DNA of 35,474 bases from Actinomycetota bacterium (GCA_019347915.1 JAHWKL010000013.1:1-35474), one strand, 5' to 3'. Positions 3,774 to 25,809 are shown, counted from the first letter of the stretch. Translations and numbers: made by a program. Notes: generated by a model not told the origin, from the sequence alone.

Positions 3774-4906
3774 CGTGACCGGGCCTCCACCAGCGTGGCG
3801 GCCCGTGGACCACCGTCGCCAGCGCCGGCCAGGTCGGCGAGTACCCCCAGCAACACCTCTATCTGCCGGTCCAGGCGCAGGCCGCGGGCGACGGCAGCGC
3901 GAGCGGGGGCCGCCTCGCCCCGGAACTGCCTCGGATTCTGCAGTACGTCCTCGAGGGCCCCGGCGAGGGCGTCGACCCGGCGGGGCGGGACCAGCACGCC
4001 GGCGTCGCCGAGCATCTCCACCACGCCCCCGTGGGCCGTGGCCACCACCGGCAGGCCGATGCTCATGGCCTCCACGACGCTCAATGACCCCGCCTCGGGA
4101 TCGGTGCTGGGCGAGACCATGACCGTCCAGGAGCGCATCCGGGCCAGCGGGTCGGCCACGTGGCCCAGGAAGCGGACCCGACCCGCCAGGTCGGGGCGGG
4201 CCGCCCGAGCCTCCAGCGACGTCACGTAGTCGCCGTCCTTCGGGAACCGGCCCCCCATGAGTTCGACGACGACGTCGCTGCGGGGAAGGGCGGCCACCGC
4301 GTCGAGCAGGACGTCTTGCCCCTTCCAGGAGGTGAGCACGGCGTTGCAGCCGATCACCGGCGACGCCGGAGGGTCGGGAAGCACAGGCTCGACGGGCCAC
4401 GGCGTGCCGTTGTACACCACCAGCGTGGCGAGGGAGAAGGGGGACAGGGCCCGCTCCACGGCCGACGAGACGCAAATCGCCAGGTCCACCGCCGGCGCGC
4501 AGCGCCGCAGCATGGCCAACCGGTCGCGGCGAACCACCACGTCGTGCACGAGCCATGCCGCCGGCACCCGGGCCGTCAGCCGGGCCAGTCGCAGCACGGG
4601 CAGAACCAGCAGCCCGTTGGCCAACACCACGTCGGCGCCGGCGAGCGCCCGGCGCACCGGCACAACGGCCCCTAGCCATCTCAGCACCAGGCGGAGGAAG
4701 GCAAGCAGGCGGGGGCCTCTGGGCAGGGTGAGCTCGGGCACCCGGCGGCGGTCCACGCCAGCATCTTCCAAGGTGGCGACCAGAGGACCGTCCGGGCTGA
4801 GACACGTCACCTCCCAGCCGTTCTCGACGGCGGCCCGCAAGACGCGGGCCAGCACTCGCTCGGCGCCGGAGGACTGGCCGGTGTGCGACACGGCGACCAG
4901 GCGCAT
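3767..4906 (-). CDS. Glycosyltransferase family 4 (GT-B fold)
   Basis: The 379-residue protein is of normal GT4 length. The N-terminal acceptor domain opens with MRLVAVSHTGQSSGAERVL, with the GAE motif seen in many EPS transferases. The donor-binding domain has the lysine segment LTSWKGQDVLLDA and the retaining-GT signature PEAGSLSVVEAMSIGLPVVAT (E-x7-E type), followed by GVVEMLGDAGVLVPP. It would add a sugar to the lipid-linked repeat unit at the cytoplasmic face; the donor cannot be told from sequence. Its ATG shares one base with the TGA of the flippase (TGATG), so the pair is coupled. Confidence 0.9.
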   Translation of the reverse strand: MRLVAVSHTGQSSGAERVLARVLRAAVENGWEVTCLSPDGPLVATLEDAGVDRRRVPELTLPRGPRLLAFLRLVLRWLGAVVPVRRALAGADVVLANGLLVLPVLRLARLTARVPAAWLVHDVVVRRDRLAMLRRCAPAVDLAICVSSAVERALSPFSLATLVVYNGTPWPVEPVLPDPPASPVIGCNAVLTSWKGQDVLLDAVAALPRSDVVVELMGGRFPKDGDYVTSLEARAARPDLAGRVRFLGHVADPLARMRSWTVMVSPSTDPEAGSLSVVEAMSIGLPVVATAHGGVVEMLGDAGVLVPPRRVDALAGALEDVLQNPRQFRGEAAPARAAVARGLRLDRQIEVLLGVLADLAGAGDGGPRAATLVEARSRC

Positions 4907-6435
4907 CAGCCGCTCACCTCCGTTTCCTCACCGGCCAGCGCCCGCCAGCCGCCGGGGCCGGCGGCACCGGCGGCGTCCGCAGCGGCGAGGAACACCACCG
5001 CCGTGCCGGCGGCGGCAAGAGGCCACGGGACCAGGCGGGCCAGAAGGGCACCGACGAGGAGGGCAACCACGCCGCAGGGAACGGCTCGCGCCGCCGGCGC
5101 CAGACGCGAGGGGCGCAGGCCCGGCTGTCGCAGGAGGATCAGCCAGAGCAACCCCACCACGACCAGCTCGGTCACCAAGGTGGTGACCGCTGCGCCCTGG
5201 TACGACCAGGCGGGAATCGCCCACAGGTTGAGCCCCACGTTGAGGACCACGCCGACGAGGGTCGCCACCGGGTAGAGGCGGTGGCGGCCGGTGGCCACCA
5301 GGGCGGTGAATGCCAGGCTGCCGAAGAAGGCGATGGCCTCGGCGACGACGACGATCCGGGTGGCGCCGGCACCGGCACCGTACTCCGCTCCGTACAGCGT
5401 CTCGACGAGGGGCTCGGCGAACAACAGGAACTCGACCACCACGAGCACGGCGGCGAGCATCAGGATGGTGAACGCACGCCGGAACCCGTCCCGGAACCGC
5501 GCCGGGTGATCGGGCCAGGCCCGTACCAGTACCGGGAGGGTGGCGATCATCATGGCCGTGGACACGAAGTGCACGACGTCGACGAACTTGTAGGCGACCC
5601 CGTAGACGCCAACCGAGGCGAACGAATCCAGCTTCGAGAGCATCACGGAGTCGATGCGGTAGTAGGCGGTGGCCAACGCTCCACCCAGGGCAAGGGGCAC
5701 GGCTTCCCGGAACAACCGTCCCCACGCTTCCCATAGGAACCGGTAGCGCAGGTCGAGCAGGCGTCGGCCCCAGCGCCAGTGCCAGGCGAGGATCACCACT
5801 TCGGCGATCACCGCCGGGATGGTGAAGAGCAGTACCGACCCGCCGGCGGTGGCGATGGCGGCGGTGAGGGCGATCTGGCTGAGCTGGCCCATGACGGATG
5901 CGGTAGCGAGGGGCCGTAGCCGGTTCTCGGCCTGGAAGACGGCGACGTAGGCCTGCGAGGGAGTGGCGATGACCAGCACCAGTGCCGCCACCGCCGTGGC
6001 CCTGACCACGTCACCGGGATAGCCGGTCGCCGCCACCACGGCGACAGCGATCATGTAGCCGCCGATACCAAGCGCCGTTCGCAACAACACGTAGGAGCCG
6101 GCGAAGGTGCCTGGGTCGTTCTTTTCGTCAAGGATGCCGGCTACCGCCACCCGGCCCATGCCCAACTCGGTGAGCGTCGCCACCAGACCGAGGAAGCCGA
6201 AGATGAAGGCGAAGCGCCCGAACTCGTCAACGCTCAGGCTGCGGACGATCAGGAGGGTCCCGGCCCACCCCAGGACGGCCACGGCGAGGCGGCCGGCGAG
6301 CAGGGTCCCGGCGTCGGCCAGCAGGCGACTCCCTCGGGGAGGACTGGCTTTCGTGTCGGGTCGGTCCGGCGGCACCTGCAAACCAGACGGCGCCGGCGGC
6401 CGATCGGATGGCCGGAGCCGCCCGCCGGCCGTCAC
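4906..6435 (-). CDS. Wzx-type oligosaccharide flippase (polysaccharide biosynthesis family)
   Basis: The 509-residue integral membrane protein of the MOP/Wzx superfamily moves the undecaprenyl-linked repeat unit across the membrane. About 12-14 hydrophobic segments are visible, starting at LLAGRLAVAVLGWAGTLLIV and ending near LVPWPLAAAGTAVVFLAA. Family features include RSLSVDEFGRFAFIFGFLGL in the first loop and AYYRIDSVMLSKLDSFASVG before the central helices. The GTG at 6435 overlaps the TGA of the upstream glycosyltransferase as GTGA. The frame is open far upstream, but that part is antisense-like and Arg/Gly/Pro-rich, so it was excluded. The first 45 residues are hydrophilic and proline-rich. 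Confidence 0.9.
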   Translation of the reverse strand: MTAGGRLRPSDRPPAPSGLQVPPDRPDTKASPPRGSRLLADAGTLLAGRLAVAVLGWAGTLLIVRSLSVDEFGRFAFIFGFLGLVATLTELGMGRVAVAGILDEKNDPGTFAGSYVLLRTALGIGGYMIAVAVVAATGYPGDVVRATAVAALVLVIATPSQAYVAVFQAENRLRPLATASVMGQLSQIALTAAIATAGGSVLLFTIPAVIAEVVILAWHWRWGRRLLDLRYRFLWEAWGRLFREAVPLALGGALATAYYRIDSVMLSKLDSFASVGVYGVAYKFVDVVHFVSTAMMIATLPVLVRAWPDHPARFRDGFRRAFTILMLAAVLVVVEFLLFAEPLVETLYGAEYGAGAGATRIVVVAEAIAFFGSLAFTALVATGRHRLYPVATLVGVVLNVGLNLWAIPAWSYQGAAVTTLVTELVVVGLLWLILLRQPGLRPSRLAPAARAVPCGVVALLVGALLARLVPWPLAAAGTAVVFLAAADAAGAAGPGGWRALAGEETEVSG

Positions 6436-7472
6436 ACGCACGCGCCCAGCGAGCGGTACACCGCAGCGGTGGCCGAGGCCGTCGCCGTCCACGTGAACGA
6501 CGCCGCCCGCTCGATCCCGGCCTGCGCCATCTCGCGGCGTCGCTCGGTGTCGCCCAGCACCTCCCTGATGGTCTGACCCAGGCGCTCGCCGTCGCCCGGA
6601 GGCACCAGCCAGGCGGCGTCTCCCAGCACTTCGGGCAACGATGCCACCCGAGTGGCCACCACCGCCGCGCCGCAGGCCATGGCCTCCAGGGGCGGGAGGC
6701 CGAAGCCCTCGTAGCGGGACGGGTAGGCCACCACCGTGGCGCAGCCGTAGAGCGGGGCCAGGTCGGTGCGCGGCACGTACCCGAGCCGGACGGTGCCCGG
6801 GGCCGCCGGGCTCCCGTCGCCGGCGCCGGCCAGCACGAGGGGAACGCCCACCTGGCGGCATGCCCAGGTCAGGGTGGGAACGTCCTTGCGGGGCTCGATG
6901 GTCCCGACGTGGAGCACGAACCTCGGTGGGAGCTGGTAGCGGCGTCGCACCCGCTCCACCTCATGGGCCGGCGCCGGCCTGAGGTCGGTCGACGGCGCCA
7001 GCGGCGTCACCACCGCCGTGCGGCCGAAGCGGGCGGCCACGCGCTCAGCGGTGAAGGCAGAAACCGCCACCACCGTGTCAACGCGCCGCAGGGAGCGACG
7101 GATCAGCGCTCGCTCACCGCGGGCGCGGGTGCGGGAGAAGGCCCAGGGGACGTCGAACACGGCCAAGTCGTGAACGGTGGCGACGCTCGGGCCCCGGCGG
7201 CGGACGGGGACGTCGACGTCGAGCCCGTGGACCACGTCGGCGGCGCCGAGCGACCGCAGACCGTGCAGGGCCCGCGCCACTCCGTCGGCCGTGGGCCGCA
7301 CCAGAGGCTTGACCCCGGGGGGCAACTCGCACTCGACGTCCCGCTGGACGGCGGCCACGACGTCGCCGTCGACGGCCAACGCCAGCGGGGGAAGGAGCTC
7401 GCGGATGTAGGTCTGCACGCCACTGCCACCCGGGCGCAGGGCCAGCGCGTTCAACGCGACGCGGCCGCCCAC
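6432..7472 (-). CDS. Glycosyltransferase family 4 (mannosyltransferase-like)
   Basis: The 346-residue protein starts at a GTG overlapping the 3' end of the ligase gene by 22 bases; homology begins at once with GRVALNALALRPGGSGVQTY, a typical GT4 N-terminus. Later motifs are VATVHDLAVFDVPWAF, VSAFTAERVAARFGR, HVGTIEPRKDVPTL and the donor-site block YEGFGLPPLEAMACGAAVVAT. These are those of retaining GT4 enzymes related to WbaZ/WbdA-type mannosyltransferases; the actual donor is not determined. The reading frame stays open on the minus strand to base 11132, but everything beyond 7472 is antisense to other genes and was rejected. Confidence 0.88.
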   Translation of the reverse strand: MGGRVALNALALRPGGSGVQTYIRELLPPLALAVDGDVVAAVQRDVECELPPGVKPLVRPTADGVARALHGLRSLGAADVVHGLDVDVPVRRRGPSVATVHDLAVFDVPWAFSRTRARGERALIRRSLRRVDTVVAVSAFTAERVAARFGRTAVVTPLAPSTDLRPAPAHEVERVRRRYQLPPRFVLHVGTIEPRKDVPTLTWACRQVGVPLVLAGAGDGSPAAPGTVRLGYVPRTDLAPLYGCATVVAYPSRYEGFGLPPLEAMACGAAVVATRVASLPEVLGDAAWLVPPGDGERLGQTIREVLGDTERRREMAQAGIERAASFTWTATASATAAVYRSLGACV

Positions 7473-8797
7473 GGCGTCACCGCCCCGGCGAAGAGCCAGA
7501 AGTACACGTCCATCGGGAAGATCTCGAGGTAGGTGGCAACCAACGACGCCACCGCGGCGGCCATCACCGTCGCCGCCACCCCACTGGCGAAGGCTCCCTC
7601 CTCGCCACCGAGACGAGATGCGGCCAACCGGGCGGTGGCGAAGATCGACACCAGCAGCATGACGAACAGCCACAGGCCGAGCACGCCAAGCTCGAGCAGG
7701 ACCTTGAAGTAGTAGTTGTCGGGCTGGTAGCGAGTCTTGCCGCTCTGCAGCTCCGCCACCTTCTCCGAAGCGCTGCCGGTCGCGCCCACGCCGGCTCCCA
7801 GAGGTGCGCTGGCGACCGCGGAACCCCGTTCCTGCCACGACTCCACCCGTTCCACCGACGACGACGCCGACAGCGCCGGGGCCGCCAGCTCCTGCGGCAG
7901 GAACAGGAGGGCCGTCACGCCGAGAGGGATCCCCAGCAGGAGGACCGGGTGCCGGGTGAAGCCCAGGTACGCCAGCCCCACGGCCACGCCGATCCACGCT
8001 CCTCGCACGAAGGTGAAGCCGAGGGCCACGCCGAGGACCGGCAGGGCCACCAGGAAGGCACGGTTCCGCCGACGCCCCGGGTCGGACAGGGCGGCAGGCA
8101 CGCCGATGAGGATCACCAGCATGAGGAAGAAGGCGAAGCCGAACGGCTGGTTGAACGTGGAGAACGACCGCAACATGCTGCCGGCGAAGCGGATGGCGCT
8201 GTTGTACTCGTAGCCCAGCCCGTGGAGGACGGCGCCACCGACGACCTGCTGGCCGAGTCCGACCACGGCGGTCACCACGCCGCAGGCCATCAGCACGGTG
8301 ACCAGGCGATCGCGCTCGGCGGCGGCCAGAGGGCAGCGCCACACGGCCACGGCGACGAGGACGTAGAAGAACAGGGTCTTCATGCCCACGGCGGCCTGGA
8401 GCCCGCCGACGATCATCGCCGACACGGCACCGAGGACTACGAGGCCCACCACGGCGGGAGTCCACGGGGGCAGGCGTCGACCGGAGGGGCCCCGCGCCTC
8501 GGGGGGGGCGACCACCGTCGCCGCCAGCGTGAGCAGCACCAGGGCCTCCTTCCACCCTGTGGCCACGGCGGGCGCGGGCACGATCAGGAGAAGCCCGTGG
8601 AACGGCACCAGCGCCGCCAGCAGGAGCAGCCCTCGCTGCGGCCGCTCGGCCACGGCGAGGCAGAGGGGGACGAGGACGGCCAAGGCCAAGATCCACGGCC
8701 CGAGGCCGGCCAGCAGGGCGGCGCCGAGGGCCAGGTTGGCGGCGGCCAACGGAGCGACGTGCGGGGAGCGGCGACCGGCGCCGACGGCGAGGGCCAT
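7451..8797 (-). CDS. O-antigen ligase/polymerase-like membrane protein (Wzy_C)
   Basis: The 448-residue polytopic protein has about ten or more hydrophobic helices. The Wzy_C/ligase region shows SFSTFNQPFGFAFFLMLVIL and the signature FVRGAWIGVAVGLAYLGF, followed by a large external loop (about residues 320-370) and a C-terminal helix cluster ending PMDVYFWLFAGAV. In a Wzx/Wzy pathway this protein would polymerise repeat units or join the glycan to an acceptor on the outer face. The ATG at 8797 gives MALAVGAGRRSPH just before the first helix; in-frame upstream sequence looks non-coding. There is no strong ribosome binding site, so the start is moderately certain. It opens the block that runs leftward to 2958. 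Confidence 0.84.
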   Translation of the reverse strand: MALAVGAGRRSPHVAPLAAANLALGAALLAGLGPWILALAVLVPLCLAVAERPQRGLLLLAALVPFHGLLLIVPAPAVATGWKEALVLLTLAATVVAPPEARGPSGRRLPPWTPAVVGLVVLGAVSAMIVGGLQAAVGMKTLFFYVLVAVAVWRCPLAAAERDRLVTVLMACGVVTAVVGLGQQVVGGAVLHGLGYEYNSAIRFAGSMLRSFSTFNQPFGFAFFLMLVILIGVPAALSDPGRRRNRAFLVALPVLGVALGFTFVRGAWIGVAVGLAYLGFTRHPVLLLGIPLGVTALLFLPQELAAPALSASSSVERVESWQERGSAVASAPLGAGVGATGSASEKVAELQSGKTRYQPDNYYFKVLLELGVLGLWLFVMLLVSIFATARLAASRLGGEEGAFASGVAATVMAAAVASLVATYLEIFPMDVYFWLFAGAVTPWAAASR

Positions 8798-8921
8798 CGA
8801 CTGGATACGGACATTGGCCCGCTGGAGATGCGCGGCCTTCGGTGAATCCTCCGGCACCCGCGTCCGTACACCAGGAACCGACCAGCGAGCCCGGCGAGCA
8901 CGACCAAAGGAGACGACCATC
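8798..8921. promoter_or_regulatory. Divergent promoter region between ligase block and protease block
   Basis: This 124-bp interval separates two divergent units and must contain both promoters. The protease side has an AAAGGAGACG ribosome binding site at 8906-8915. No clear -10 or -35 hexamers could be assigned. Confidence 0.45.
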
Positions 8922-11168
8922 ATGCTGCGACGCGCCACCGTCTCCGGCCTGGCCCTTGCGCTGGTGGCTGCCACCGCGGTGGTGGCCTCGGCCCCGCCCG
9001 GCGAGCGGTCCGATGAAGCGCCGGTGCCGGGCCTGCTCCGCCAGGGCAAGGAGGATCCCGGCCTGCTCAAACAGGCCGGACAGGTCCCCACGCTTGTCCC
9101 CCAGGCCGAGGAAGTTCCCCGCCTTCTCCCCCCGGCCGAGGAGGTCCCGGGCCTCGGCCGCCAGTCCGAGAAGGTGCCGGGGCGCTACATCGTGGTCTTC
9201 CGGCCCTCGGTGGCCGATGTCGGCAGCACCACCGCGGTCCTCGAGCGGGGCCGGGGCTTTCACGCCGAGCACCGCTACAGCCGAGCCCTGAAAGGATTCA
9301 CCGCCAAGCTGTCCGACGCCCAGGCCGCCGCCCTGCAGGCCCACCCCGACGTCGAGCTGGTGACCCCCGACCGCCCGGTGCAGGCCAGCGGCACCGTCCC
9401 CCTCGTCCCGCCGTTGGAGTCGGCACCCACGGGGGTGCGACGGATCGATGCGGCCACCGCCACCACCGGCCGCCAAGCCAGCACGGCCAACGTGGCCGTC
9501 CTCGACACCGGCGTCGATCTCGACCACAGTGACCTCAACGTCGTCCACGGCAAGAACTGCGTGGGCAGCGGCCCCGCCGACGACCTCCAGGGCCACGGCA
9601 CCCACGTGGCCGGCTCGGTGGCGGCGTTGAACAACGGGGCCGGGCTGACGGGCGTGGCGCCGGGGACCAAGGTGCACGCCGTCAAGGTCCTCGACGACAC
9701 GGGCAGCGGGACCTTCTCCCAGATCATCTGCGGCATCGACTGGGTCACCTCCACCCGTACCGACGCCGACCCCGGCAACGACATCGCCGTGGCCAACCTG
9801 AGCCTCGGGGGCTCCGGCAGCCCGGTGGGCACGTGCGCCAGCACCACCGACGCCCTGCACCGGGCCATCTGCAACTCCACCGCCGCCGGTGTCACCTACG
9901 TGGTGGCCGCCGGCAACAGCGGCTGGGACTTCGACAATTCCCTGGCGCCGGACCTGCCCGCCGCCTACCCCGAGGTGCTCACCGTCAGCGCCGCCGCCGA
10001 CAGCGACGGGGCCCCGGGGTGGCTCGCGGCCTCCAAGTGCGGCAACAGCGACGACACCTACGCCGGCTTCTCCAACTGGGCCGCCACCTCGGCCGGCGCC
10101 GCCCACCTGGTGGCCGCCCCGGGCGCGTGCATTCTTTCGACCTATCTCGCCAGCACCTACGCCACCATGTCGGGCACCTCCATGGCCGCCCCCCACGTCG
10201 CCGGGGTGGTGGCCCTGTGCCTGGGCGAGGCCGGGACGCCGGGCCCGTGCTCGGGGCTGGCGCCGGCACAGGTGATCGCCAAGGTGCGCTCCGACGCCAG
10301 CGCCCACAGCACCGCCCAGCACGGTTACGGCTTCAAGGGCGACCCCCGGAACCCGGTCCCCGGTCGCTCCTACGGTCACTTGGTCTGGGCCAGCAACACT
10401 TCCGCGGCGGTCGGCGCCCGCTATCACCCGCTGACGCCCGCCCGCATCCTCGACACCCGCTCGGGCAACGGCGCCCCGGCGGCCAAGGTCGGCGCAGGCG
10501 CGAAGGTCGACCTGCAGGTCACCGGCCGAGGCGGGGTGCCCACCACCGGGGTCGGCGCCGTGGTCATGAACGTCACTGTCACCGAGCCCACTGCCGCCAG
10601 CCACCTCACCGCCTGGCCCACCGGCTCCTCCCGCCCGGTTGCGTCCAACCTCAACTACGTCGCCGGCAAGACCGTGCCCAACCTGGTGGTGGCCAAGGTG
10701 GGCTCGGGCGGCAAGGTCAGCCTGCACAACAACTCCGGCCAGATCCACGTCATCGCCGACGTGGTCGGCTGGTACGGCGACGGCAGCGGCACCTCGGGGG
10801 CCCGCTACACACCGCTGACGCCCGCCCGCATCCTCGACACCCGCTCGGGCACCGGCGCCCCGGCGGCCAAGGTGGGCCCCGGCGGCACCGTGAACCTGCA
10901 GGTCACGGGCCGGGGCGGCGTGCCCACCGCCGGGGTCGGCGCCGTGGTCATGAACGTCACCGTCACCGAACCCAGCGCCGCCAGCCACCTCACCGCCTGG
11001 CCCAGCGCCTCGTCGCGCCCGGTGGCGTCCAATCTCAACTACGTCGCCGGCCAGACCGTGCCCAACCTGGTGGTGGCCAAGGTCGGCTTCGGGGGCAACG
11101 TCAGCCTGCACAACAACTCCGGCCAGACCCACGTCATCGCCGACGTCGTGGGTTGGTACTCCCAGTAA
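8922..11168 (+). CDS. Secreted subtilisin-like serine protease (S8) with VVGWY repeats
   Basis: The 748-residue exported protease has a signal peptide at residues 1-24. Residues 36-85 are five exact-period decapeptide repeats ([50 protein letters not shown]). Residues 88-155 are an I9-type propeptide ([14 protein letters not shown] to [10 protein letters not shown]). The S8 domain follows, with catalytic D195 ([12 protein letters not shown]), H225 ([16 protein letters not shown]), oxyanion N332 (AAGNSG) and S420 ([14 protein letters not shown]), all intact. From residue 499 to the end there are two copies of a 127-residue module ([35 protein letters not shown]) shared with the large Ig-like protein at 28669. 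AAAGGAG precedes the ATG. It may process surface proteins; the downstream BY-kinase gene suggests an EPS-linked role, which is inference. Confidence 0.93.
10416..11165 (+). repeat. Two tandem 381-bp VVGWY modules in the protease gene
   Basis: Copies start at about 10416 and 10797 and are highly similar at DNA and protein level. Each encodes Y[14 protein letters not shown] at the start and VIADVVGWY at the end. Related but more diverged copies are at 30940-32064. Long near-identical stretches make this a possible site of recombination and of assembly collapse. Confidence 0.85.
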
Positions 11169-11219: not shown

Positions 11220-12707
11220 GTGGAGCTTTCACGACACTTCCGGGCCATCTGGCGGCGACGCTGGCGTATCCTCCTGGCGTCGGCCCTGGTCGCCGCGCTG
11301 GTCGGTGCGTGGAGCGCCAGCCAGCCCAAGATCTACGAGGGCCGAGCCACGGTGGCCATCGCCTCCGGGCGGGCCACCGCCGGCGAGTCCGTCACCAGGG
11401 AAGACACCCTCTTCCTCACCCGTACGTACGCCGAGCTGGCCGAGACCCGCCCGGTCGTCGCCGACGCTGCGCAGCGGTCGGAGCTGCCGATCAGTGTGAC
11501 CGAGGCCGGCCGGCGCCTGAGCGCTCGGGCCCACGACGACGTCGGGTTCCTCACCGTCTCGGCCACCGGTCCCTCACCTGACGCGGCTACCGAGCTCGCC
11601 GCTGCCGGCGCCGACGCCGTGGTCGCCGCGGTGAGCGCCCAGCACAAGCAGGCGCTGCGCGAGGCGCTGGCGCCCGTGGAGGCCGAGATCGAGGAGGTCG
11701 AGGAGCGCCTCGCCAAGGTCGAGCGGGGGTCGGCCGACCGGGCGCCGCTCGAGGCCCGCTACGCCGCCCTTCTCGCCTCGGCCACCGAGCGGAGCCTGCA
11801 GCCCGTCGACCGCCTCACCGTGGTGTCGCCCGCCCGCACCGATCCCGCGCCGGTGTCACCGAAGCCGGCCAGGGACGCGCTGCTCGCCCTGCTCGTCGCA
11901 CTCGTGGTCAACAGCGAGCTGGCCGTGCTCCTCGCCGGGTTGGCCGACCGTTTCTCCGGCGACGACGAGGAGGTCGACGTGTCCGAGGTGACCGGGCTGC
12001 CCGTCCTGGCGCGGGTACCCGCCAGCGGGGAGGAGGCCATGGTCGAGGCCTTCCGTACGCTGCGCACCAACCTGATGTTCATGGACTCCCTGGAACACGT
12101 ACGCACGGTGGCCGTGGTGAGCGTCGACCCGGGAGCGGGCAAGTCGTTCAGCTCCGTCAACCTGGCCCGGGCTGCGGCCGGGCTCGACGTACCAGTGGCG
12201 CTGGTCGACGCCGACCTCCGCAGGCCGAGCGCCCACGAGTACCTCGACCTGCCGGTGGCCCCCGGCCTCACCGAAGTGCTCGGCGGGCGCTGCGAGCTCG
12301 CTCAGGTACTCAAGCTCGCTTCCCGCGACGAGGGCCTCCACGTCATCACCGCCGGCTCTCCTGTCGACGACGCCTCGCGCATCGTCGGTAGCCAGGAGCT
12401 GGGCGAGGTGCTCGCCGGGCTCCACTGGGCTGGCCTGGTGGTGGTCGACACCCCTGCCGCCGGCGTGTTCGCCGATGCCCTCGCCGTGGCCTCCCGCTGC
12501 GACGCCACCGTGGTCGTGGTCGACCTGGCCACCAGCAAGCGGAGGGCGACGCGCACCCTCGTCGACCAACTCCGCCAGGTGGGGGCCAAGCCCATCGGCG
12601 TGGTGTTGAACCGCAGCGACCGCGCCCCCCGAAGCTCGTACTACTACCAGAGGCAGAACGGGAACGGCACCGGCCGGCACCTGGCACGCGTGGGCGGGCG
12701 TCGATGA
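11220..12707 (+). CDS. Fused Wzz-like / BY-kinase (chain-length regulator and tyrosine autokinase)
   Basis: The 495-residue protein joins a Wzz/CapA-type membrane anchor to a CapB/CpsD-type kinase. The first helix is about residues 17-35 and the second about 220-241, enclosing an external region of roughly 185 residues with a short coiled coil (AEIEEVEERLAKVERG). The cytoplasmic kinase has Walker A SVDPGAGKSFSSVNLA (301-316), Walker A' VALVDADLRRP (D330, D332) and Walker B LVVVDTPA (D410). The conserved block EAFRTLRTNLMFM precedes it. The C-terminal tyrosine cluster is minimal, SSYYYQRQ (Y474-476). It would control EPS chain length and export by phosphorylation cycling. The GTG at 11220 lies 51 bases after the protease stop. 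Confidence 0.9.
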   Translation: MELSRHFRAIWRRRWRILLASALVAALVGAWSASQPKIYEGRATVAIASGRATAGESVTREDTLFLTRTYAELAETRPVVADAAQRSELPISVTEAGRRLSARAHDDVGFLTVSATGPSPDAATELAAAGADAVVAAVSAQHKQALREALAPVEAEIEEVEERLAKVERGSADRAPLEARYAALLASATERSLQPVDRLTVVSPARTDPAPVSPKPARDALLALLVALVVNSELAVLLAGLADRFSGDDEEVDVSEVTGLPVLARVPASGEEAMVEAFRTLRTNLMFMDSLEHVRTVAVVSVDPGAGKSFSSVNLARAAAGLDVPVALVDADLRRPSAHEYLDLPVAPGLTEVLGGRCELAQVLKLASRDEGLHVITAGSPVDDASRIVGSQELGEVLAGLHWAGLVVVDTPAAGVFADALAVASRCDATVVVVDLATSKRRATRTLVDQLRQVGAKPIGVVLNRSDRAPRSSYYYQRQNGNGTGRHLARVGGRR

Positions 12708-12729: not shown

Positions 12730-13946
12730 TCAGCTCACCGGCCCCCGCCGGTAGACCTCGCCAAGCAGCTCGACCAGCTCGGCGGTGGTCTTGCGGGCGT
12801 CGAAGCGCTCGCACACCCTCTTCCGGGCTGCCTCTCCCATGGCCCGACGGCGATCCTCGTCGGCCACCAGACAACGCAGGGCGCGGGTCAGGCCGAGGTC
12901 GTCGCCCTGCTCCACGAGGAGGCCGCTCACTCCGTCCTCCACCATCTCGGGGATGGCTCCCACCCTCGTGCTGACCACCGGCACGCCGGCGGCCATGGCC
13001 TCGAGCACGGCGTAGGGGGTCTTGTCGATCTCGGTGGGCAGTGCGAACACCGCGGTTCGGGCCAGCAGCTCCGGAATACGAGGATCGCCGGGATAGACGT
13101 CGGCGAGCACCTCGATCCCGGGACGGGGCTCGACGTGCTCCTGGGTGACGAGGGTCAGCTGGCACTGTCCCCGCAGGGCCGCCTCGAACACCCGCACCAG
13201 CTGCCAGCCTCCCTTGCCCTGCATCGTCTTGCCGATGAAGGTCACCCGTGGCAGGTCATCGAGCAGTGGGCGCGGCGCCGGTTCCGGAACGGTCACCCCG
13301 AAGGGGATGACCCGCACCCGGTCACGCGGGATCCCGTAGCTTTCCAGTTGCGCCGCCGTCCACTCCGACTGGGCCACGACCGCGCCGGCGGCCTCGTACA
13401 CCCGCCGCTCCAGGGGCATCACCGCACGCAGGGCCGGTCCGGTCATGAGCCCGGGACGCCGGTACGCGAGCGAGTAGGCGTTGACCACGTTGGTCGTGTC
13501 GAGGGAGACGACCGTCGGACGGGCGGCGAGAGCGGCCGCCGACAAGAGCACGGCATTGTGGGTGTAGACGTGCACCACGTCGGCATCGGCCAGGAGGCGG
13601 TGGAGGCGGCGCCGGACGTACCAGCTCTGGGCCAGCTGGTAGCGCAGGGGTTGCAGGTCGGCGTCGAGCCGGGCCAACCCCGGCACGGGGGCAGCGGCCA
13701 CGCGCCGCCAGAGCCCGGGTGGCGGCACCTCGAGGAAGGTGGCATCGAGCTCGGGATGCCCGACAAGGGCGCGGCGGACGTACGCGTGCATGGCGGTGTG
13801 GCCACCCAGGTTCTCGTTGACGAACAGGGCTCGCAGCGCTCCGCTCCGGGGGGAGCCGGTCGCCAACCCGCTCAGCGGCGACAACCCCCAGTGGGACCGA
13901 CGCGTGACCGGGCGCCGAGGCACCGCGGGATACGACCCCGACCGGC

Positions 13947-13950
<4 letters not shown>
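12730..13950 (-). CDS. Glycosyltransferase family 4
   Basis: The 406-residue protein starts at a GTG that overlaps the DUF4012 stop as GTGA; the preceding GTG is also possible. After a 40-residue non-conserved leader, the acceptor domain opens with RALFVNENLGGHTAMHAYVR. The donor domain has RVTFIGKTMQGKGGWQLVRV and ALPTEIDKTPYAVLEAMAAG, where the E of the usual E-x7-E motif is visible, then AIPEMVEDGVSGLLVEQGD. It is the last gene of the minus block started by the glycosylphosphotransferase and converges on the BY-kinase gene with a 22-base gap. Sugar and linkage cannot be predicted. Confidence 0.88.
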
Positions 13951-15857
<1,907 letters not shown>

Positions 15858-15875: not shown

Positions 15876-17324
15876 CTACGCCGCCGGCTCGCCCACTGGT
15901 TGCGGCAGACGGGGGGCAGCCGCCAGTGCCTCGACCGGGACCTCTGGGATCGGGGCCGGTCCCCCTTGGAACAGGGAGCTGACGGTGCGGGCCAGGGTCA
16001 CCACGTCTCTCCACGGCGACCAGTTCTCGATGTAGTGATTGTCGAGCCGGGCCCGCTCCTCGATCGAGGTGTCGCCCCGCAGGCCGTTCACCTGGGACCA
16101 ACCGGTCATCCCCACCGGGGCTCGATGCCGGTGGCGGTAGCCGGCGATCTCCTCGCTGAAGCGCTCGACGTAGAAGGGCCGCTCGGGACGGGGACCCACC
16201 ATGGACATGTCGCCCCGTAGGACGTTGAACAGCTGAGGGAGCTCATCCAGGCTGCTGCGGCGCAGGAACGCCCCTACGGCGGTCACCCGCGCGTCCGTGG
16301 CGACCGACCACTGGGTGTCCGCGTCGTCGTTGATCTCCATGGAACGGAACTTGAGGACCTCCACGAGCCTCCCGTGCTGACCCACCCGCGCCTGGCGGAA
16401 CAGGATCGGGCCCGGGCTGGAGAGGCGGACCAGGACGGCCACCGCCACCATGACCGGCGCCGCCACCAGCAGGGACAGGCTGGCCACCACCACGTCGAAC
16501 GCCCGCTTGGCGCCACGGGCGGCGGGATGACACAGCGACTGGCCCACTCGGACGAAGGGCAGTCCCCACACCTCCTCTGTCGTGTCCGCGCCGAGCTCGA
16601 AGAACCGGGGCAACACGTGGATCTCCACCGCGGCACGGTCACAGGCGCGCACCACGCCCACCATCTCGGCGTCGGTGGTCGGCCCGAAGGCCACCATGAC
16701 CCGGCGCACACCATGGCTGCGGACCACCGCCTCCAGCGAGGAGACGGGGCCGAGCACCGGCAGCAGCAGGTCGTCTTCCTCGTCCACGTCGTCGAGGAAG
16801 CCCACCGGGTGCGAGCCGTACTCGGGGTGGTCGGCGAGCACGCGCGCCACCTCGGCGCCCACGGGGCCGGCGCCCACCACGAGGGTCGGCTCCCCGAGCA
16901 CGCGTCTGGTCCGCAGGCCTCGCACCACGGCGTAGACGATCGCCCGCACCGTCAGCACCGCCACGGTGGCGACCAGGGCCGAGCGGAGCAGCGTGGCGCC
17001 TACCTCGGCCGAGCCTTGGAGGCCGCCGAGGATCACCCCGGGGACGATCACCGCCCCGGCGATCGCCGCTGCGTCCCTGCTCAACGACGGGGCCAGGCCG
17101 AGCCGTTGGTGGCCCCGGGCCACGATCGCCCCGAGCGTCATGAGCATCCAAGCGACGGCGATCTGCGGCGTCGGCACCGTCGCCAGACCAATGGCCATCC
17201 CAGTGGCGTCGCCGAAGAGCACCACTGGCCCCAGCGAGAGGCCGAGCGCTCCACTCGACCATCGGCCACCGTGGCCACGGCTGGTCCCCGTTGCGCCCAG
17301 TGTTACTTCCGGTTGATTGTCCAC
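15876..17324 (-). CDS. Exopolysaccharide polyprenyl glycosylphosphotransferase (initiating enzyme)
   Basis: The 482-residue WbaP/CpsE-type enzyme transfers a sugar-1-phosphate to undecaprenyl phosphate, the first committed step. The N-terminal half has four or more helices, then a Rossmann-like segment (TLVVGAGPVGAEVARVLAD). The catalytic C-terminal domain starts with RGAKRAFDVVVASLSLLVAA and shows LSSPGPILFRQARVG, LKFRSM, RRSSLDELPQLFNVLRGDMS, MVGPRPERP and PVGMTGWSQVNGLRG, all typical and intact. The start is the GTG at 17324 with TTGGAGG five bases upstream, which outweighs an open frame further upstream. It leads the minus block with DUF4012 and a GT4. Confidence 0.93.
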   Translation of the reverse strand: MDNQPEVTLGATGTSRGHGGRWSSGALGLSLGPVVLFGDATGMAIGLATVPTPQIAVAWMLMTLGAIVARGHQRLGLAPSLSRDAAAIAGAVIVPGVILGGLQGSAEVGATLLRSALVATVAVLTVRAIVYAVVRGLRTRRVLGEPTLVVGAGPVGAEVARVLADHPEYGSHPVGFLDDVDEEDDLLLPVLGPVSSLEAVVRSHGVRRVMVAFGPTTDAEMVGVVRACDRAAVEIHVLPRFFELGADTTEEVWGLPFVRVGQSLCHPAARGAKRAFDVVVASLSLLVAAPVMVAVAVLVRLSSPGPILFRQARVGQHGRLVEVLKFRSMEINDDADTQWSVATDARVTAVGAFLRRSSLDELPQLFNVLRGDMSMVGPRPERPFYVERFSEEIAGYRHRHRAPVGMTGWSQVNGLRGDTSIEERARLDNHYIENWSPWRDVVTLARTVSSLFQGGPAPIPEVPVEALAAAPRLPQPVGEPAA

Positions 17325-17544
17325 GGAACCTCCAATCCGGCGACGGTGAAGCCCCGCCTGGGCTTTTGGTACGAAGCGCCCCCCGGCCCGGATCCCGTAG
17401 AGAACGTCGAGCGTGACCCATCGCCTTGATCTGTAGCCACGACTGATCCGAATGGAGGAGCACAGGGACGGAGGTACCGACCGGAGATGCCGGCCGGGGG
17501 CGCCGGCGAGACGACGATCGGACGGCATGCGGCAACGGGGCGCA
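17325..17544. promoter_or_regulatory. Divergent promoter region with leader hairpin
   Basis: This 220-bp interval lies between the glycosylphosphotransferase and the HPr-kinase-like gene. On the minus strand a short hairpin (AAGCCC, 5-base loop, GGGCTT; bases 17349-17365) sits about 25 bases upstream of the glycosylphosphotransferase start, in its likely leader. Read on the plus strand the same hairpin is followed by T-rich sequence. I compared the leader with the c-di-GMP-I riboswitch and found no convincing match. Confidence 0.4.
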
Positions 17545-18600
17545 ATGGATCACCACCACGAAGCGCCGGCGACCGTGTGCGACGTTCGGCTCCACCAGTT
17601 GGTCACCGTGCGGGCGGCGGGGGCGACGCCGGCCGCTGCCTCCCGCCTCAGCCGACTGCTGCCCGGTCGCTGGTCCGAGACGAACGGGGACCGGCCCGAC
17701 CTCGTGCTGCGCCAGGTCGACCGCCTGGCCCTCGGTCCGGGTTCGGGGCGCATCGGGCAGATGTCGTTCGACAGAGAGTGGCTGGTGCTGCATCGCCGCG
17801 GCCGCAATGGCGCCCGTCGGGTGACCGTCGCTCTCGACGACGTGGGCTCGGGTGCGAGATCGTCGGCGAAGGCGACCTGCCCGACGCCAAGCTCGTGGTG
17901 TTGCTGCTCCGCACTGCGGCGCTGGGCCGGCAGGTGCTGCCCTTGCACGGCGCAGTGTTCGAGCACGGTGGCGCCGGCGTGGTGGCCACGGGCTGGCCCG
18001 GATCGGGCAAGACCGCCGCGCTGCTCGACTTCCTGGCCCAGGGAGCCCGCCCCGTCGCCTCCGAGTGCTCACTGGTGACGCCGGACGGGACCGACCTTCG
18101 GGGGCTGACGCACGACCTGCGGCTCAAGTCGGCGCACCTCCACCGGCTGCCCCCCGGCCGCGGTCCCCGGTGGGCCCGCTCGCTCGCCCGTCGGGCAGGC
18201 GGCGACGCCGGCCGCTTGACCCGCGCTCTCGCTCGCCGGGCGGCGGTGGACGTTCCCTGGTCCGCCGTCGCCGCTACGGGCACGGCCACCACCGGCTTCG
18301 ACGCCCTGTTCCTGCTGGAGGACGCCGAGGTGGGCGGCGTCGTGGTGGAGCCACTCGACCCGGCGACCGCCGCCGCCCGGCTGACCCGGCTGCTCGTCAC
18401 CGATCTGGGCGAGCTCACCACCGCCTACGGAATGTTCCGCTACGCCTTACCCCATCGGCGCAGCCCCGTGCTCGACCAGGCGGAGGAGCGCCACCGAGCG
18501 CTCCTCGAGCGCCATCTGGAGTCCCGACCACCTTCCTCGTGCGCTACCGGTACCCGGCGCCTCCGGGCGAGCTCTTCCTGGCCATGTCCCCGGTGCTGGC
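17545..18600 (+). pseudogene. HPr-kinase-like P-loop protein (copy 1), frameshifted
   Basis: The protein must be read in three frames. Segment 1 (17545 to about 17850) is MDHHHEAPATVCDVRLHQLV to RRVTVALDDVGS. Segment 2 (about 17850-18520) is CEIVGEGDLPDAKLVVLLLR, then the HprK-type P-loop LPLHGAVFEHGGAGVVATGW with GSGKTAALLDFL, ASECSLVTPDG and FDALFLLEDAE. Segment 3 (about 18520-18600) is GVPTTFLVRYRYPAPPGELF; its place is supported by the matching C-terminus of the second copy at 20502. HprK-like proteins of this type phosphorylate small molecules or peptides in several clusters; no HPr or PTS gene is here. The start could also be the ATG at 17527. The breaks could be sequencing indels or true decay. 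Confidence 0.75.
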
Positions 18601-18615
18601 GAGAGCGGGCTCGTC

Positions 18616-19277
18616 GTGGCGCTGGTCGGTCCCGACGGCGTGGGCAAGACCACCATCTCCCGCCGGTTGGCGGAGCTGCTGGAGGAACCCGTGCACCCGT
18701 GTACGCCGGGGACAATCCGGAGGACGCCGAACGCATCCTGGCCACCACCCGGCTGGTGTGGTGGTGCCGGCGGCAGGCCGGCCACGGCGTCACCCACGGT
18801 CAGCCGGTCTCCCGCCGCCGGCGCCATCGCTCGCTCCCGGCCGGGCTGCTCCAGGCGCCCCGGGTGCTGGCACTGGTCGCCGCCCAGTGCGGCGAGGAGT
18901 GGAGCCGCCTGCACCGGGCCCGGCGCCTGGCCCGGGCCGGCGCGGTGGTCGTGCTCGACCGGTCGTACCTCCACGACTACTACCGTCACGACATCGACGC
19001 CCCCGGCCGCTCCCCCACCCAGCGGCTGCACGGCTGGTGGCTGTGGCGGGTCCTCCCCCGACCGGAGCTCAGCGTGTTCCTCGACGCTCCCGTCGCCCTT
19101 CTCCACGCCCGCAAGCCCCAAGGTTCGATCGAGGACCTGCGACGCCGGCGTCAGGAGTGCCGAGACCTCGAGGGCCTCACGTCGGGATGGGCCCGGGTGG
19201 ACGCCGGCAGAGACCTCGACGCCGTGGCGACCGCCGTGGCCGACGCCGCCCGCGGCTTCCGCCGAGAGCGGCAATGA
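18616..19277 (+). pseudogene. Thymidylate-kinase-like P-loop kinase, frameshifted
   Basis: The start is taken at GTG 18616, giving VALVGPDGVGKTTISRRLAE with a textbook Walker A. Near 18695 the frame changes and VYAGDNPEDAERILATTRLV continues the fold. Later features match thymidylate-kinase-like enzymes: VVVLDRSYLHDYYRHDI (DR-type catalytic motif), LSVFLDAPVALLHARKPQG, and the lid-like RRRRQECRDLEG. Such proteins in EPS loci are usually not true thymidylate kinases; the substrate is unknown. The TGA at 19275-19277 overlaps the ATG of the ATP-grasp gene (ATGA), showing the two were designed to be co-translated. A single-base correction would restore the frame. Confidence 0.76.
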
Positions 19278-20521
19278 CCGTCACCGGTCCCCGCTCCGGG
19301 CGCTCGGTCCTGGTGACCGACGCCGGCCGTCCCAGCGCGCTGGCCGTCATCCGGTCCCTGGGCCGGGCCGGCTGGAGGGTGGTGGCCGCGACCAGCGACC
19401 GGGTGAGCCCGGCCCTGCACTCCCGCTACACCACCGCCCGGGTTCGCTACCCCAAGCCCCACCATGACCCGGCGGGGACCGTCGAGGCCGTGCTGTGCGC
19501 CGCGCGCCGGCACCACGTCGACCTGGTCGTGCCCGTCACCGACGACGTCATCCTGCCGCTGGCCGGCGCCCGCCGCCGGTTCCAGGGCGTGGCCACCCTC
19601 GCCATCGCCGATGACGCCGCCCTGGCGGCGGCGGCAGACAAGCTCGCCACCATCCGTCTGGCGAGGGCCCAGGGCATCGCCGTGCCCCGCACCCTGGCCG
19701 TCGACGAGCTCGGGCTCGAGCCGGCGGTGGTGGCGGCTGGCCATCTGGGATGGCCGGTCGTCGTCAAGCCCCGGCGTTCCTACACCTACGTCGCCGGGAC
19801 CCGGCCCCAGCGACGATGGGTGGGCTACGCCTTCGACGAGGCGGAGCTGCGCCACCGGCTCGCCGCCGCCGGCGACGGCGCGCTGCTCCAGGAACACCAT
19901 CCCGGGACCGGCGTGGGCGTGGGGGTCCTGGCCGACCACGGTCGCCCGCTCGCCGCCTTCCAGCACCGCCGCCTCCGCGAGTTCCCGCTCACCGGCGGGG
20001 CCAGCTGCTCCCGGGTGAGTGAGTCTGTCGACCCCGCGCTGCTGGGCGCCGCCACCACCCTTCTGGGCGCCCTGGAATGGACGGGGTTGGCCATGGTCGA
20101 GTTCCGAGTCGGCCACGGCGAACCCGTGCTCATGGAGATCAACGGGCGCATATGGGGCGCCCTGCCCCTGGCGGTGACGAGCGGGATGGACTTCCCCGCC
20201 CGGCTGGCGGCGCTGCACCTGGAGGGGGCGTCGCCGCAGGCAGGGGAACCCGATGTCGACTACCGCGTGGGCGTGTGCACCAGCGACCTCGACGGCGAGC
20301 GGGCCTGGCTGGCGGCCGTGCTCCGAGGTGTCCCGCTGCGGCCGCCGTTCGAGATGCCCCCTCGGCGGGAAGCGCTGGGCGCGGCCGTGGGCCTGCTGCA
20401 CCGTGGCTTCCCGATCGACGGCTTCGACCGCCACGATCCCGTCCCCGGTGCCTTGGAGGTGATGCGGGTGGTAGCCGGCGTGGCCGGCCGCCGGCTGAGG
20501 GTCAGCTCACCGCCCGGGTAG
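19274..20521 (+). CDS. ATP-grasp ligase
   Basis: The 415-residue protein is intact. The N-terminal preATP-grasp domain has VLVTDAGRPSALAVIRSLGR and HHVDLVVPVTDDVILPLAG. The ATP-binding part shows DKLATIRLARAQGIAVPRTL, GWPVVVKPRRSY (lysine that binds phosphate), ALLQEHHPGTGVGVGVLADH, and the metal-binding C-terminal block GLAMVEFRVGHGEPVLMEIN followed by GRIWGALPLAV. The family forms carboxylate-amine or carboxylate-thiol bonds through acyl phosphates. In this place it could attach an amino acid or similar group to the glycan or its precursor; that is inference. Its last 20 bases overlap the end of the convergent broken kinase gene. Confidence 0.88.
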   Translation: MTVTGPRSGRSVLVTDAGRPSALAVIRSLGRAGWRVVAATSDRVSPALHSRYTTARVRYPKPHHDPAGTVEAVLCAARRHHVDLVVPVTDDVILPLAGARRRFQGVATLAIADDAALAAAADKLATIRLARAQGIAVPRTLAVDELGLEPAVVAAGHLGWPVVVKPRRSYTYVAGTRPQRRWVGYAFDEAELRHRLAAAGDGALLQEHHPGTGVGVGVLADHGRPLAAFQHRRLREFPLTGGASCSRVSESVDPALLGAATTLLGALEWTGLAMVEFRVGHGEPVLMEINGRIWGALPLAVTSGMDFPARLAALHLEGASPQAGEPDVDYRVGVCTSDLDGERAWLAAVLRGVPLRPPFEMPPRREALGAAVGLLHRGFPIDGFDRHDPVPGALEVMRVVAGVAGRRLRVSSPPG

Positions 20522-21521
20522 CGGCCGGTAACCACCTGGCCCTGGTGGCCATGGCCCGGCGGATGGCGACGGCCACCTCCGCCGGTGGTGCCCTGGTGGG
20601 CACCACGGCAGTCCACCCCTCGACGCCGGCCAGGAACCCGTCCAACCGATCCGGGTCGACGTCGGGCCGCGTCGCAGCGGCCACGGGGCCAGCGCCGGCA
20701 GGCCGAAGCCGAACATGGCTCGCAGGGCGAACAGCCCCACCTCGTCGAGATAGGTGATGTGGTGGGCCACCCCCGTGAGGAGCTGCCGGCGAGTCAACGG
20801 CTCCACCTCGACGCTCCCGCCCCGCACGGGGGACAGGAACACCACGTCATCGAGCGCCGCCGTGGCCAGGAAGCCGGCGGCGGGGAAGGCGGGCTCCACC
20901 TCGAGCGTCACCCACCGCTCGGTGGCCGAGCGGGCCACCCGGTCGGAGATGGCGCCGGGAAGGGCGGCGAGGCGCGGGGCAGGTGCCGGAGCAGGAGCCG
21001 GTCCCGCCGGGAGAGGCCCCGGCCGCTGCCGGCGAGAGCTCGTAGCGGCAGCCGAGTGACAGGCGCAGGGGACCCGGGAACGACGCCACCCGTGCCCCGC
21101 CCTGGAGCACCAGCCACTACTCGGCCAGGTGGGCGGTGGCGTCGGCGAGGAGGTGGGCCAGAACCGACGACTTACCCGATCCCGTCGAAAGCGGGGTCCA
21201 CGGCCAGTCGCCGATCGCCGTCCGAGACCGGCAGCTCGGCGCGTCGACCGTTCCCGTCGCACAGTAGGAAGCGACGTCGGTTGACGGCGACGGCCCGCAG
21301 CCCGACGTGGACAGGTGCACCTCGTGCGATCCGGACAGCGGCGCACGGAACTCGATCGAGAGCGGGGCGTCTCCACCATGCCGGAGGAGTCGCCCGTAGG
21401 TGGCCACGAGCAGCTCACGTACCGCCGCCGGCGGGTCGCAGAACCGCAGCAGGGGCGTGCCCCCTACCCGCAGTGTCCAGTCGCCGCCGGACTGCGGCGC
21501 TCCTCCACGCTCGGCGCTCAC
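20502..21521 (-). pseudogene. HPr-kinase-like P-loop protein (copy 2), multiply disrupted
   Basis: The gene starts at GTG 21521, overlapping the coiled-coil gene stop as GTGA. Parts in different frames line up with copy 1: SAERGGAPQSGGDWTLRVGG to SIEFRAPLSGSHEVHLS, then GLRAVAVNRRRFLLCDGNGR, then GSGKSSVLAHLLADATAHL (P-loop), an in-frame TAG at 21117-21119, then WLVLQGGARVASFPGPLRLS. The large C-terminal part reads ISDRVARSATERWVTLEVEP, DDVVFLSPVRGGSVEVEPLT and YLDEVGLFALRAMFGFGLP, and the tail FLAGVEGWTAVVPTRAPPAE is in yet another frame. At least four frame changes and one stop are needed. The sequence before the P-loop also looks too short. It converges with the ATP-grasp gene. Confidence 0.7.
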
Positions 21522-22594: not shown

Positions 22595-23815
22595 TTAGGC
22601 GGCGCCCACGATTTCGGGCACGTCCGCGCGACGACTCGAGGGGTCGGGTCGCTGGTCGGTCGCCATCGAGGCGACGACCCGCTCGACCACCGAGCGGAAC
22701 CGGCACCGGAAGGCGGCCTGGGAGAACCGGCGGGCATGGGTGGAGATCGCCAAGGGGTCGAAGCGGTCGCCGTCGAAGCCGGCCATGGCCGCCGCCAGGG
22801 CCTCGACCTCCTCGATGGGACTGCCGGCTTCGTAGAAGGTGCCGGTCACGCCTTCGACCACCGAATCGAGCACGCCGCCCAGGCCACGAGCCAGCACCGG
22901 CGTGCCGCAGGCCTGCGCCTCCACGGGCACGATGCCGAAATCCTCCTCGCCCGGGAACACCAGCGCCCGGCATCGCCGGTAGAGGTCACCCAGCGTCTCG
23001 TCATCGACCTGGCCCAAGACCTCGACGCCCCTGCCAGCGGCCGCCTCCACCGCCGGCCGGGCCCGCCCGTCGCCGGCCACCACCAGGCGCACGCCGGCGC
23101 GCACCGCCGCCGCCACCGCCACCTGGGGACGTTTGTAGGGCACCAAGCGCCCGGCCAGGAGGAAGAAGTCGTCGCGGTGGAGGCGGGGATCGGGCGCGAA
23201 CCGCTCCACGTCGACCGGAGGTGGCACCACCTCGGCGGTGCAGCCCCACCATCTGCGTACCCGCTCGGCGACGTGGTTGGAGTTGGCGACGATGGCGGTG
23301 GCCCGCTGGGCGGCCCGGGCGTCGAAGGGACGCTGCACCCGGGCGAAGGCAAGCAGGCCGGCCCGCCCCACTCGCCCGCCCACCTCGTCGGCCAGCATCT
23401 CCCGCTCCCACATCCAACGAGCCGGGGTGTGGGTGTAGGAGATCACCGGCACGCCGGGGCGGGCCCGCACCCGGTTGGCGAAGGAGTGGTGGCTGCAGAT
23501 CACCAGGTCGGCGGCGCCGAGGGCGAAGGCCCGCATGGCCGCCGGCAGGGCCGGGAGCAGGTGGGCGTAGCGACCGTCACCCCGGTACAGCCGCTGCAGG
23601 GCGCTGGGACGGATGTCGGCGCCGGCCAGGCCAGGCGGCACGGCGGCGGCATCGGCCAGGGCGGTGTGGATGGTGGCGTCGGGCCATAGTGCGTGCAGCT
23701 GTTCGACCACCCGCTCGGAGCCGCCCAGCTCGGTGAAGCGCTCGTGGACGATGGCCACCCGACCCGGCGACGGCCTCGTGGAGGGTGACGGCGCGCTCCT
23801 CAGACGGGATCCCAC
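22595..23815 (-). CDS. Glycosyltransferase family 4
   Basis: The 406-residue protein starts at GTG 23815 with AGGAAGC a few bases upstream; homology begins around residue 19 (GRVAIVHERFTELGGSERVV). Other motifs are VISYTHTPARWMWEREM, IVANSNHVAERVRRWWG, FFLLAGRLVPYKRPQVAVAA with the donor-site lysine, and EEDFGIVPVEAQACGTPVLA with the two glutamates. This pattern is that of GT4 mannosyl- or rhamnosyl-transferases acting on lipid-linked intermediates. It heads the minus block with the coiled-coil and second HprK-like genes. The C-terminal 20 residues are not conserved. Confidence 0.9.
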   Translation of the reverse strand: MGSRLRSAPSPSTRPSPGRVAIVHERFTELGGSERVVEQLHALWPDATIHTALADAAAVPPGLAGADIRPSALQRLYRGDGRYAHLLPALPAAMRAFALGAADLVICSHHSFANRVRARPGVPVISYTHTPARWMWEREMLADEVGGRVGRAGLLAFARVQRPFDARAAQRATAIVANSNHVAERVRRWWGCTAEVVPPPVDVERFAPDPRLHRDDFFLLAGRLVPYKRPQVAVAAAVRAGVRLVVAGDGRARPAVEAAAGRGVEVLGQVDDETLGDLYRRCRALVFPGEEDFGIVPVEAQACGTPVLARGLGGVLDSVVEGVTGTFYEAGSPIEEVEALAAAMAGFDGDRFDPLAISTHARRFSQAAFRCRFRSVVERVVASMATDQRPDPSSRRADVPEIVGAA

Positions 23816-25748: not shown

Positions 25749-25809
25749 CGATCAACAAGCTGTCGCAGACGGCCGGCAACGGCCACGGTGGTGCTCCCGA
25801 CCGTCGTGG

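Follow-up and report, generated by a model that had tools for sequence, protein, structure and literature searches.

An exopolysaccharide locus of Actinomycetota with frame-broken P-loop kinase genes and an intact ATP-grasp ligase: a putative remnant of a cross-phylum cassette

Gene content of the kinase-ligase region

The stretch of DNA analysed here, hereafter the window, comprises 35,474 nucleotides from an Actinomycetota bacterium (GCA_019347915.1, JAHWKL010000013.1:1-35474) and is a high-GC contig (G000:C44) of a metagenome-assembled genome (MAG) of 2.7 Mb in 244 contigs. It carries an exopolysaccharide (EPS) locus—a family 4 glycosyltransferase (GT4), a flippase, a Wzy_C protein, an S8 protease, a Wzz/ParA protein, a second GT4 enzyme, a DUF4012 protein, an EPS glycosylphosphotransferase and a further GT4 enzyme—with the GC content peaking at ~75% exactly in a region of kinase and ligase genes. 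An initial annotation had placed four families in this region (positions 17545-21521), i.e., two paralogous HPr-kinase-like (HprK-like) genes at either end of a thymidylate-kinase-like (TMK-like) gene and an ATP-grasp ligase. All four are present, as are the end segments quoted for both HprK-like copies, but no kinase open reading frame (ORF) is intact: the frames of HprK1, the TMK-like gene and HprK2 break at the positions listed in Table 1, at least three times in HprK2. The ligase is the sole clean ORF of the set. By codon statistics, the coding frames lie on the plus strand as far as 20521 and thereafter on the minus strand, and codon bias is retained within each frame segment of the kinase genes. 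Three minus-strand ORFs (17648-18421, 18447-19274 and 19151-20434) were rejected as spurious, with no family match and non-coding codon use.

HprK1 was recognized with a profile built from 13 relatives (E 7e-37). Its N-terminal part (17566-17850) covers profile positions 4-99 in one frame, its core (17843-18527) covers positions 98-348 in the next, and the C-terminal segment lies in a third. The Walker A motif GWPGSGKT is retained and the invariant W/Y/P/E positions are mostly gone; the acidic pair reads S-E, where most members have D-E and those of Pirellulaceae A-E. Similarly, the TMK profile is covered at positions 5-32 (the P-loop) in one frame and at 34-232 in another, from ~18699.

HprK2 is related to HprK1, albeit weakly. 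It scores 13.6 bits against the HprK profile (the maximum in 300 dinucleotide shuffles was 4.2), matching segments 235-323 and 152-191 in different frames, and shares 30% identity with HprK1 over 112 aa (E 0.002); paralogy of the two copies, as initially annotated, is thus upheld only in this weak form. Searches of 292 Actinomycetota genomes with HprK2 pieces returned two marginal matches only (E 4e-4 and 7e-4), and none of the relatives examined has a second HprK beyond the ligase. The two copies around the ligase form a local, decaying pattern, and a meaningful pairing of them is not supported, since it is neither conserved nor kept in the sister locus (L003). Moreover, HprK2 lies convergently on the opposite strand, so the set is not a single operon.

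The ligase is of the PRK12767/PylC/carbamoyl-phosphate-synthase type. Its AlphaFold model (pLDDT 89) has 2pn1 (Z 27.6) and PylC (Z 27.5) as best fold matches, a group whose usual chemistry is amide formation. The window protein retains K123, K165, E276 and the ExN motif E288-I-N290; K123, K165, E276 and E288xN290 are invariant across 15 ligase sequences. In its fold, its two Lys, its acidic residue and its ExN motif, the enzyme conforms to the ATP-grasp carboxylate ligases, and the residues correspond to the ones listed for ATP-grasp enzymes elsewhere (PMC4431377).

Recurrence of the cassette in polysaccharide loci

A ligase-anchored scan yielded 15 loci, and 13 of these have HprK upstream of the ligase. 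In 12 loci the TMK-like gene directly precedes the ligase, with HprK upstream, and the window order HprK1-TMK-ligase matches 12 other loci. A polysaccharide deacetylase directly follows the ligase in 11 loci; in one (L008) the contig ends. The conserved core order in relatives is HprK/PEPCK-fold kinase, TMK-like kinase, ATP-grasp ligase and polysaccharide deacetylase, within EPS loci. In nine loci, HprK and TMK are separated by genes for a protein of ~200 aa, a kinase of the APH family and a GT4 enzyme; in Pirellulaceae, APH and sulfotransferase genes are found upstream in place of this insert. The order HprK-TMK-ATP-grasp recurs in polysaccharide loci of Chloroflexota, Acidimicrobiales and Planctomycetota, and in a reduced form in Latescibacterota. 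An uncultured Acidimicrobiales MAG of the same GTDB family as the window (G001) carries the full cassette, its locus (L002/L027) being identical in sequence to L014. The co-occurrence of HprK, TMK and ATP-grasp genes that the initial annotation had proposed as a check is thus borne out, whereas its further suggested partner, DUF4012, was found only in L003 among the relatives.

Since these loci had been picked by their ligase, a second, HprK-anchored test was run. Matches were obtained in 4 of ~295 other Actinomycetota genomes and in 6 of 201 Chloroflexota genomes. All four new strong matches (G028, G086, G097 and G398) have a TMK-like gene within ~4 kb, which in two of them is adjoined by a divergent ligase, and a second copy in G311 (L039) lies within ~7 kb of TMK, deacetylase, APH and glycosyltransferase genes. 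The weak matches in G178, G400, G456 and G511 were left out of the count, as the sequence retrieved around them (as short as 3.6 kb in G511) contained neither a TMK nor a ligase match. Conversely, a TMK-anchored search of 292 Actinomycetota genomes returned G097, G086 and G028 as the top three besides the window's own. Because the two genes are linked in both searches, the HprK-TMK pair is the tightest unit, which ligase and deacetylase mostly join. The locus counts do not represent independent events, as some loci are near-copies of each other (L006/L015 and L010/L017).

Two further features of the cassette loci were seen in passing. The ~200-aa conserved protein between HprK and the APH kinase (L009, 6474-7082, plus strand) contains the motif WHWPDF...RIIPLD, has no Pfam match and gives the impression of a reduced methyltransferase. 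Additionally, two secreted proteins resembling ABC_transp_aux/DUF4350 follow the cassette deacetylase in L009 (12232-15079, plus strand) and likewise in several Chloroflexota loci.

Probable decay of the kinase genes and the sister locus L003

The decay of the kinases was gauged on frame-corrected window sequences, with the HprK positions being those invariant in 13 relatives. Family-invariant residues are retained at 18 of 34 positions in HprK1, 45 of 59 in TMK and 88 of 98 in the ligase, and the terminal branches measure 2.37, 2.72 and 1.02, respectively (medians 0.55, 0.45 and 0.37). The nearest locus, L003, has a ligase 80% identical to that of the window. Its gap between glycosylphosphotransferase and ligase holds only a 57-aa in-frame ORF, the start of which matches the HprK N-terminus and the end the TMK C-terminus, and whose stop overlaps the ligase start—the scar of an HprK-TMK deletion. 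No HprK match was found elsewhere in the genome carrying L003. HprK2 is absent as well: past the ligase, L003 joins straight to the equivalent of window positions 21504-21553. The ligase itself has been kept under purifying selection in this lineage, with a ratio of nonsynonymous to synonymous substitution of 0.32 against its L003 counterpart (0.22-0.37 for neighbouring genes).

The main competing explanation holds that the kinases are intact in the living organism, that errors in assembling the MAG produced the frame breaks and that a complete HprK-TMK-ATP-grasp module is at work. The fragmentation of the MAG and the coincidence of the GC peak with this very region would favour such errors, and so would the codon bias kept in every frame segment, the surviving P-loops and several other retained motifs. 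Nevertheless, the breaks are concentrated in the kinases, with open frames in the ligase and the other neighbours; ~115 kb of other contigs of this MAG contain one unexplained frame switch; and the HprK1 and TMK breaks lie outside homopolymer runs longer than 4. Neither the long branches nor the lost invariant residues disappear upon frame correction, and in the sister locus these very genes are deleted. We consider this explanation a serious but clearly less probable contender. Because of the lost residues, long branches, L003 deletion, rarity of frame switches elsewhere and lack of long homopolymers, we take the kinase genes to be pseudogenes or close to that state; a working kinase module in this genome is not supported. 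In this lineage, then, the kinases are frame-broken, fast-evolving in the window and deleted in its sister, and the ligase is intact.

Relationship to known families and systems

The cassette HprK has the HprK/PEPCK fold with a P-loop and a conserved His (H132, K153, T154 and E171 are invariant). An AlphaFold model of the L009 member (pLDDT 89) aligns with PEPCK over almost its full length (Z 16.3, 289 residues, 5.1 Å) and with HPr kinase over the catalytic core (Z 14.9, 130 residues, 2.2 Å). The cut-offs of the HPr kinase/phosphorylase family are missed by L009 HprK (19.2 bits against 33.3 for PF07475, 20.4 against 240 for TIGR00679) and by the window HprK1 (13.1 bits). Similarly, L009 TMK does not reach the dTMP kinase equivalog TIGR00041 (37.3 bits against 83.25), and L011 TMK exceeds the PF02223 cut-off (41.7 bits against 27). 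HprK, TMK and ligase all score below the NCBIfam cut-offs, and no NCBIfam or Pfam model naming their combination was found. Literature searches returned no paper joining HPr kinase, ATP-grasp, thymidylate kinase and exopolysaccharide, and nothing on HPr kinase with exosortase or on ATP-grasp with exopolysaccharide in Chloroflexi. A putative EPS-locus decoration cassette of this composition is therefore unnamed in these databases and in the papers found.

Several known systems resemble it in part. In the GAK system, HprK-related kinase genes are proposed to act with an ATP-grasp protein. The cassette shares this pairing with GAK and HprK_rel_A/B, but its HprK scores 18.1 bits against the TIGR04355 cut-off of 200, grasp_GAK is not among the ligase matches shown, and TMK, deacetylase and glycosyltransferase are not part of GAK. 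Lasso-peptide precursor kinases such as BsfK have a characteristic spacing of His, Gly at +15, Lys at +21 and an acidic pair at +38/+39 (PMC10368454). The same spacing is found in the cassette HprK, although Glu takes the place of the second Asp, and the window copy has also lost the first. The B1, B2, C and precursor genes of lasso clusters were not found beside the cassette, and no RRE/PqqD, B2 protease or Asn-synthase-like cyclase was detected when the ORFs of the window, of L009 and of L011 were scanned with Pfam. In line with the initial annotation, no phosphotransferase system (PTS) or HPr domain was detected in the Pfam-scanned ORFs either, and membership of the HprK-like copies in a known peptide-modification cluster found no support. 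Assignment to lasso or GAK systems was rejected on the missing lasso genes and the missed TIGR04355 cut-off.

Among EPS systems, loci of the XrtA/PEP-CTERM type come close. The cassette glycosyltransferase resembles TIGR03087, with deacetylase, Bac_transf and flippase genes around; however, it scores 236 bits, below the cut-off of 316.65, and no exosortase was seen in the scanned ORFs. Earlier work has proposed ATP-grasp aminoacyl ligases for surface-polysaccharide clusters (PMC4000134, PMC4431377). They share the carboxylate-amine ligase type beside glycosyltransferases, but the HprK/TMK pair is not listed in the parts of these accounts considered here. Finally, the NCBIfam model of FomB, from the FomA/FomB fosfomycin kinases, is the best weak match of a planctomycete HprK (E 2e-5), yet at 23.6 bits against a cut-off of 400 the likeness extends to the shared fold only.

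These comparisons bear on a second alternative, in which the HprK-like enzyme would phosphorylate Ser/Thr residues of proteins and so regulate polysaccharide synthesis in the manner of BY-kinases, with TMK and ligase modifying the same target. The HprK fold, the H-15-G-6-K-T-D/E spacing shared with HPr and lasso precursor kinases, and the Wzz/ParA-type protein in the locus fit this idea. Against it, the whole-length fold match is PEPCK, the weak profile matches include the small-molecule kinase FomB, and no carrier protein or precursor peptide was recognized in the set. We thus regard a regulatory protein kinase as unlikely.

Proposed pathway and its limits

The explanation we favour, with a probability of roughly 0.55, is that the region is a decaying remnant of a cross-phylum polysaccharide-modification cassette, in which the ligase is predicted to be still functional and independent of the kinases. 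In such a cassette, the deacetylase would free an amino group on a sugar, or provide an amino sugar. The ATP-grasp enzyme could then form an amide via an acyl-phosphate, linking the building block of the glycan to a carboxylic acid or an amino acid before export by Wzx/Wzy-type machinery. The target of the two P-loop kinases would be a small-molecule precursor of this decoration, or an intermediate in it, and not HPr—a FomB-like use of the fold. In the organism studied here, the ligase may have become independent of the kinases.

A tentative and bolder extension would see an unnamed, horizontally spread decoration pathway, with the HprK/PEPCK-fold and TMK-fold kinases acting in sequence with amide ligase and deacetylase to yield an undescribed phosphorylated or amidated EPS sugar, and this lineage representing a shortened, ligase-only form. 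That Chloroflexota, Planctomycetota and Actinomycetota have this gene order in common suggests that the surface polymers of these mostly uncultured bacteria share a single, as yet uncharacterised glycan chemistry. Moreover, the decaying copy together with the deletion scar in the sister locus amounts to a natural knock-out, suggesting that the ligase step can be retained without the kinases; the range of possible kinase roles is therefore narrowed.

Several observations weigh against our preferred explanation. L007 has HprK and ligase without TMK, and in L024 and L035 the sequence retrieved contains HprK and TMK but gave no ligase match, so that a strict shared pathway is not proven. The window deacetylase belongs to the same Pfam family as the ligase-adjoining deacetylase of relatives, but is only weakly similar to it and lies at the opposite end of the locus. 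Frame-corrected HprK1 retains P-loop, conserved His and Glu, and local errors in assembling a MAG of such extreme GC content could account for the frameshifts. The reactions and substrates of all cassette members are predicted rather than demonstrated.

It is improbable that the product of the cassette is a small-molecule natural product and that its genes are mere fellow travellers of the polysaccharide genes. ATP-grasp enzymes plus kinases are common in antibiotic pathways, and the distribution is sporadic (~2% of sampled genomes); nonetheless, the cassette lies amid glycosyltransferases, flippases, Bac_transf or sulfotransferase genes in several phyla, the deacetylase directly follows the ligase, and the cassette glycosyltransferase is similar to the XrtA-system EPS type. 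A chance neighbourhood of unrelated kinases, to which the absence of HprK2 and DUF4012 as conserved partners might point, is very improbable given the identical gene order in anciently diverged phyla and the reciprocal HprK-TMK linkage in loci picked without the ligase.

Neighbouring genes and minor observations

Table 1. Annotated features of the window, with the matches and frame breaks on which each assignment is based
Feature	Coordinates	Strand	Remarks
Polysaccharide deacetylase	2958..3780	-	PF01522 E 3.8e-18; C-terminal part of ORF 2958-4805
GT4 glycosyltransferase	3767..4906	-	Pfam
Wzx/MATE-type flippase	4906..6861	-	PF13440
Wzy_C O-antigen ligase/polymerase-like protein	7451..9091	-	PF04932
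Wzz/ParA-type chain-length regulator/BY-kinase-like protein	11220..12707	+	PF02706, PF01656
GT4 glycosyltransferase	12730..13983	-	Pfam
DUF4012 protein	13947..15857	-	PF13196 E 2.4e-34
EPS polyprenyl glycosylphosphotransferase (Bac_transf)	15876..17528	-	TIGR03025 376 bits, exceeds cutoff; PF02397; divergent from HprK1
HprK1, HprK/PEPCK-fold kinase gene	17527..18590	+	Profile match; frame breaks near 17850, 18515
TMK-like P-loop kinase gene	18592..19277	+	Profile match, 131 bits; frame break near 18697
ATP-grasp ligase, intact, 415 aa	19274..20521	+	PF15632 E 5e-11; overlaps TMK stop
HprK2, weak HprK-like sequence	20507..21475	-	Convergent; at least 3 frame breaks, in-frame stops
GT4 glycosyltransferase	22595..23815	-	Pfam

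Beyond the features in Table 1, the subtilase adjoining the Wzz/ParA gene (8382-11168, plus strand; 928 aa) has an I9 propeptide, and the L003 contig starts with a sequence resembling it. A coiled-coil protein of 357 aa (21518-22591, minus strand) is weakly similar to DivIVA/Wag31 (E 5e-4). Directly downstream of a response regulator (24541-25365), the coding signal shifts across three minus-strand frames (25304-26272), possibly marking a further broken gene. At the contig end, an HTH_21 domain (85-612, minus strand) is likely a fragment of an IS3-type transposase. A weak, below-cut-off match to camelysin-like (M73) proteins lies at 35061-35438 (minus strand). Finally, a protein of 1174 aa (28543-32067, plus strand) contains several bacterial Ig-like domains (Big_13 and Big_5) and is probably located at the surface.

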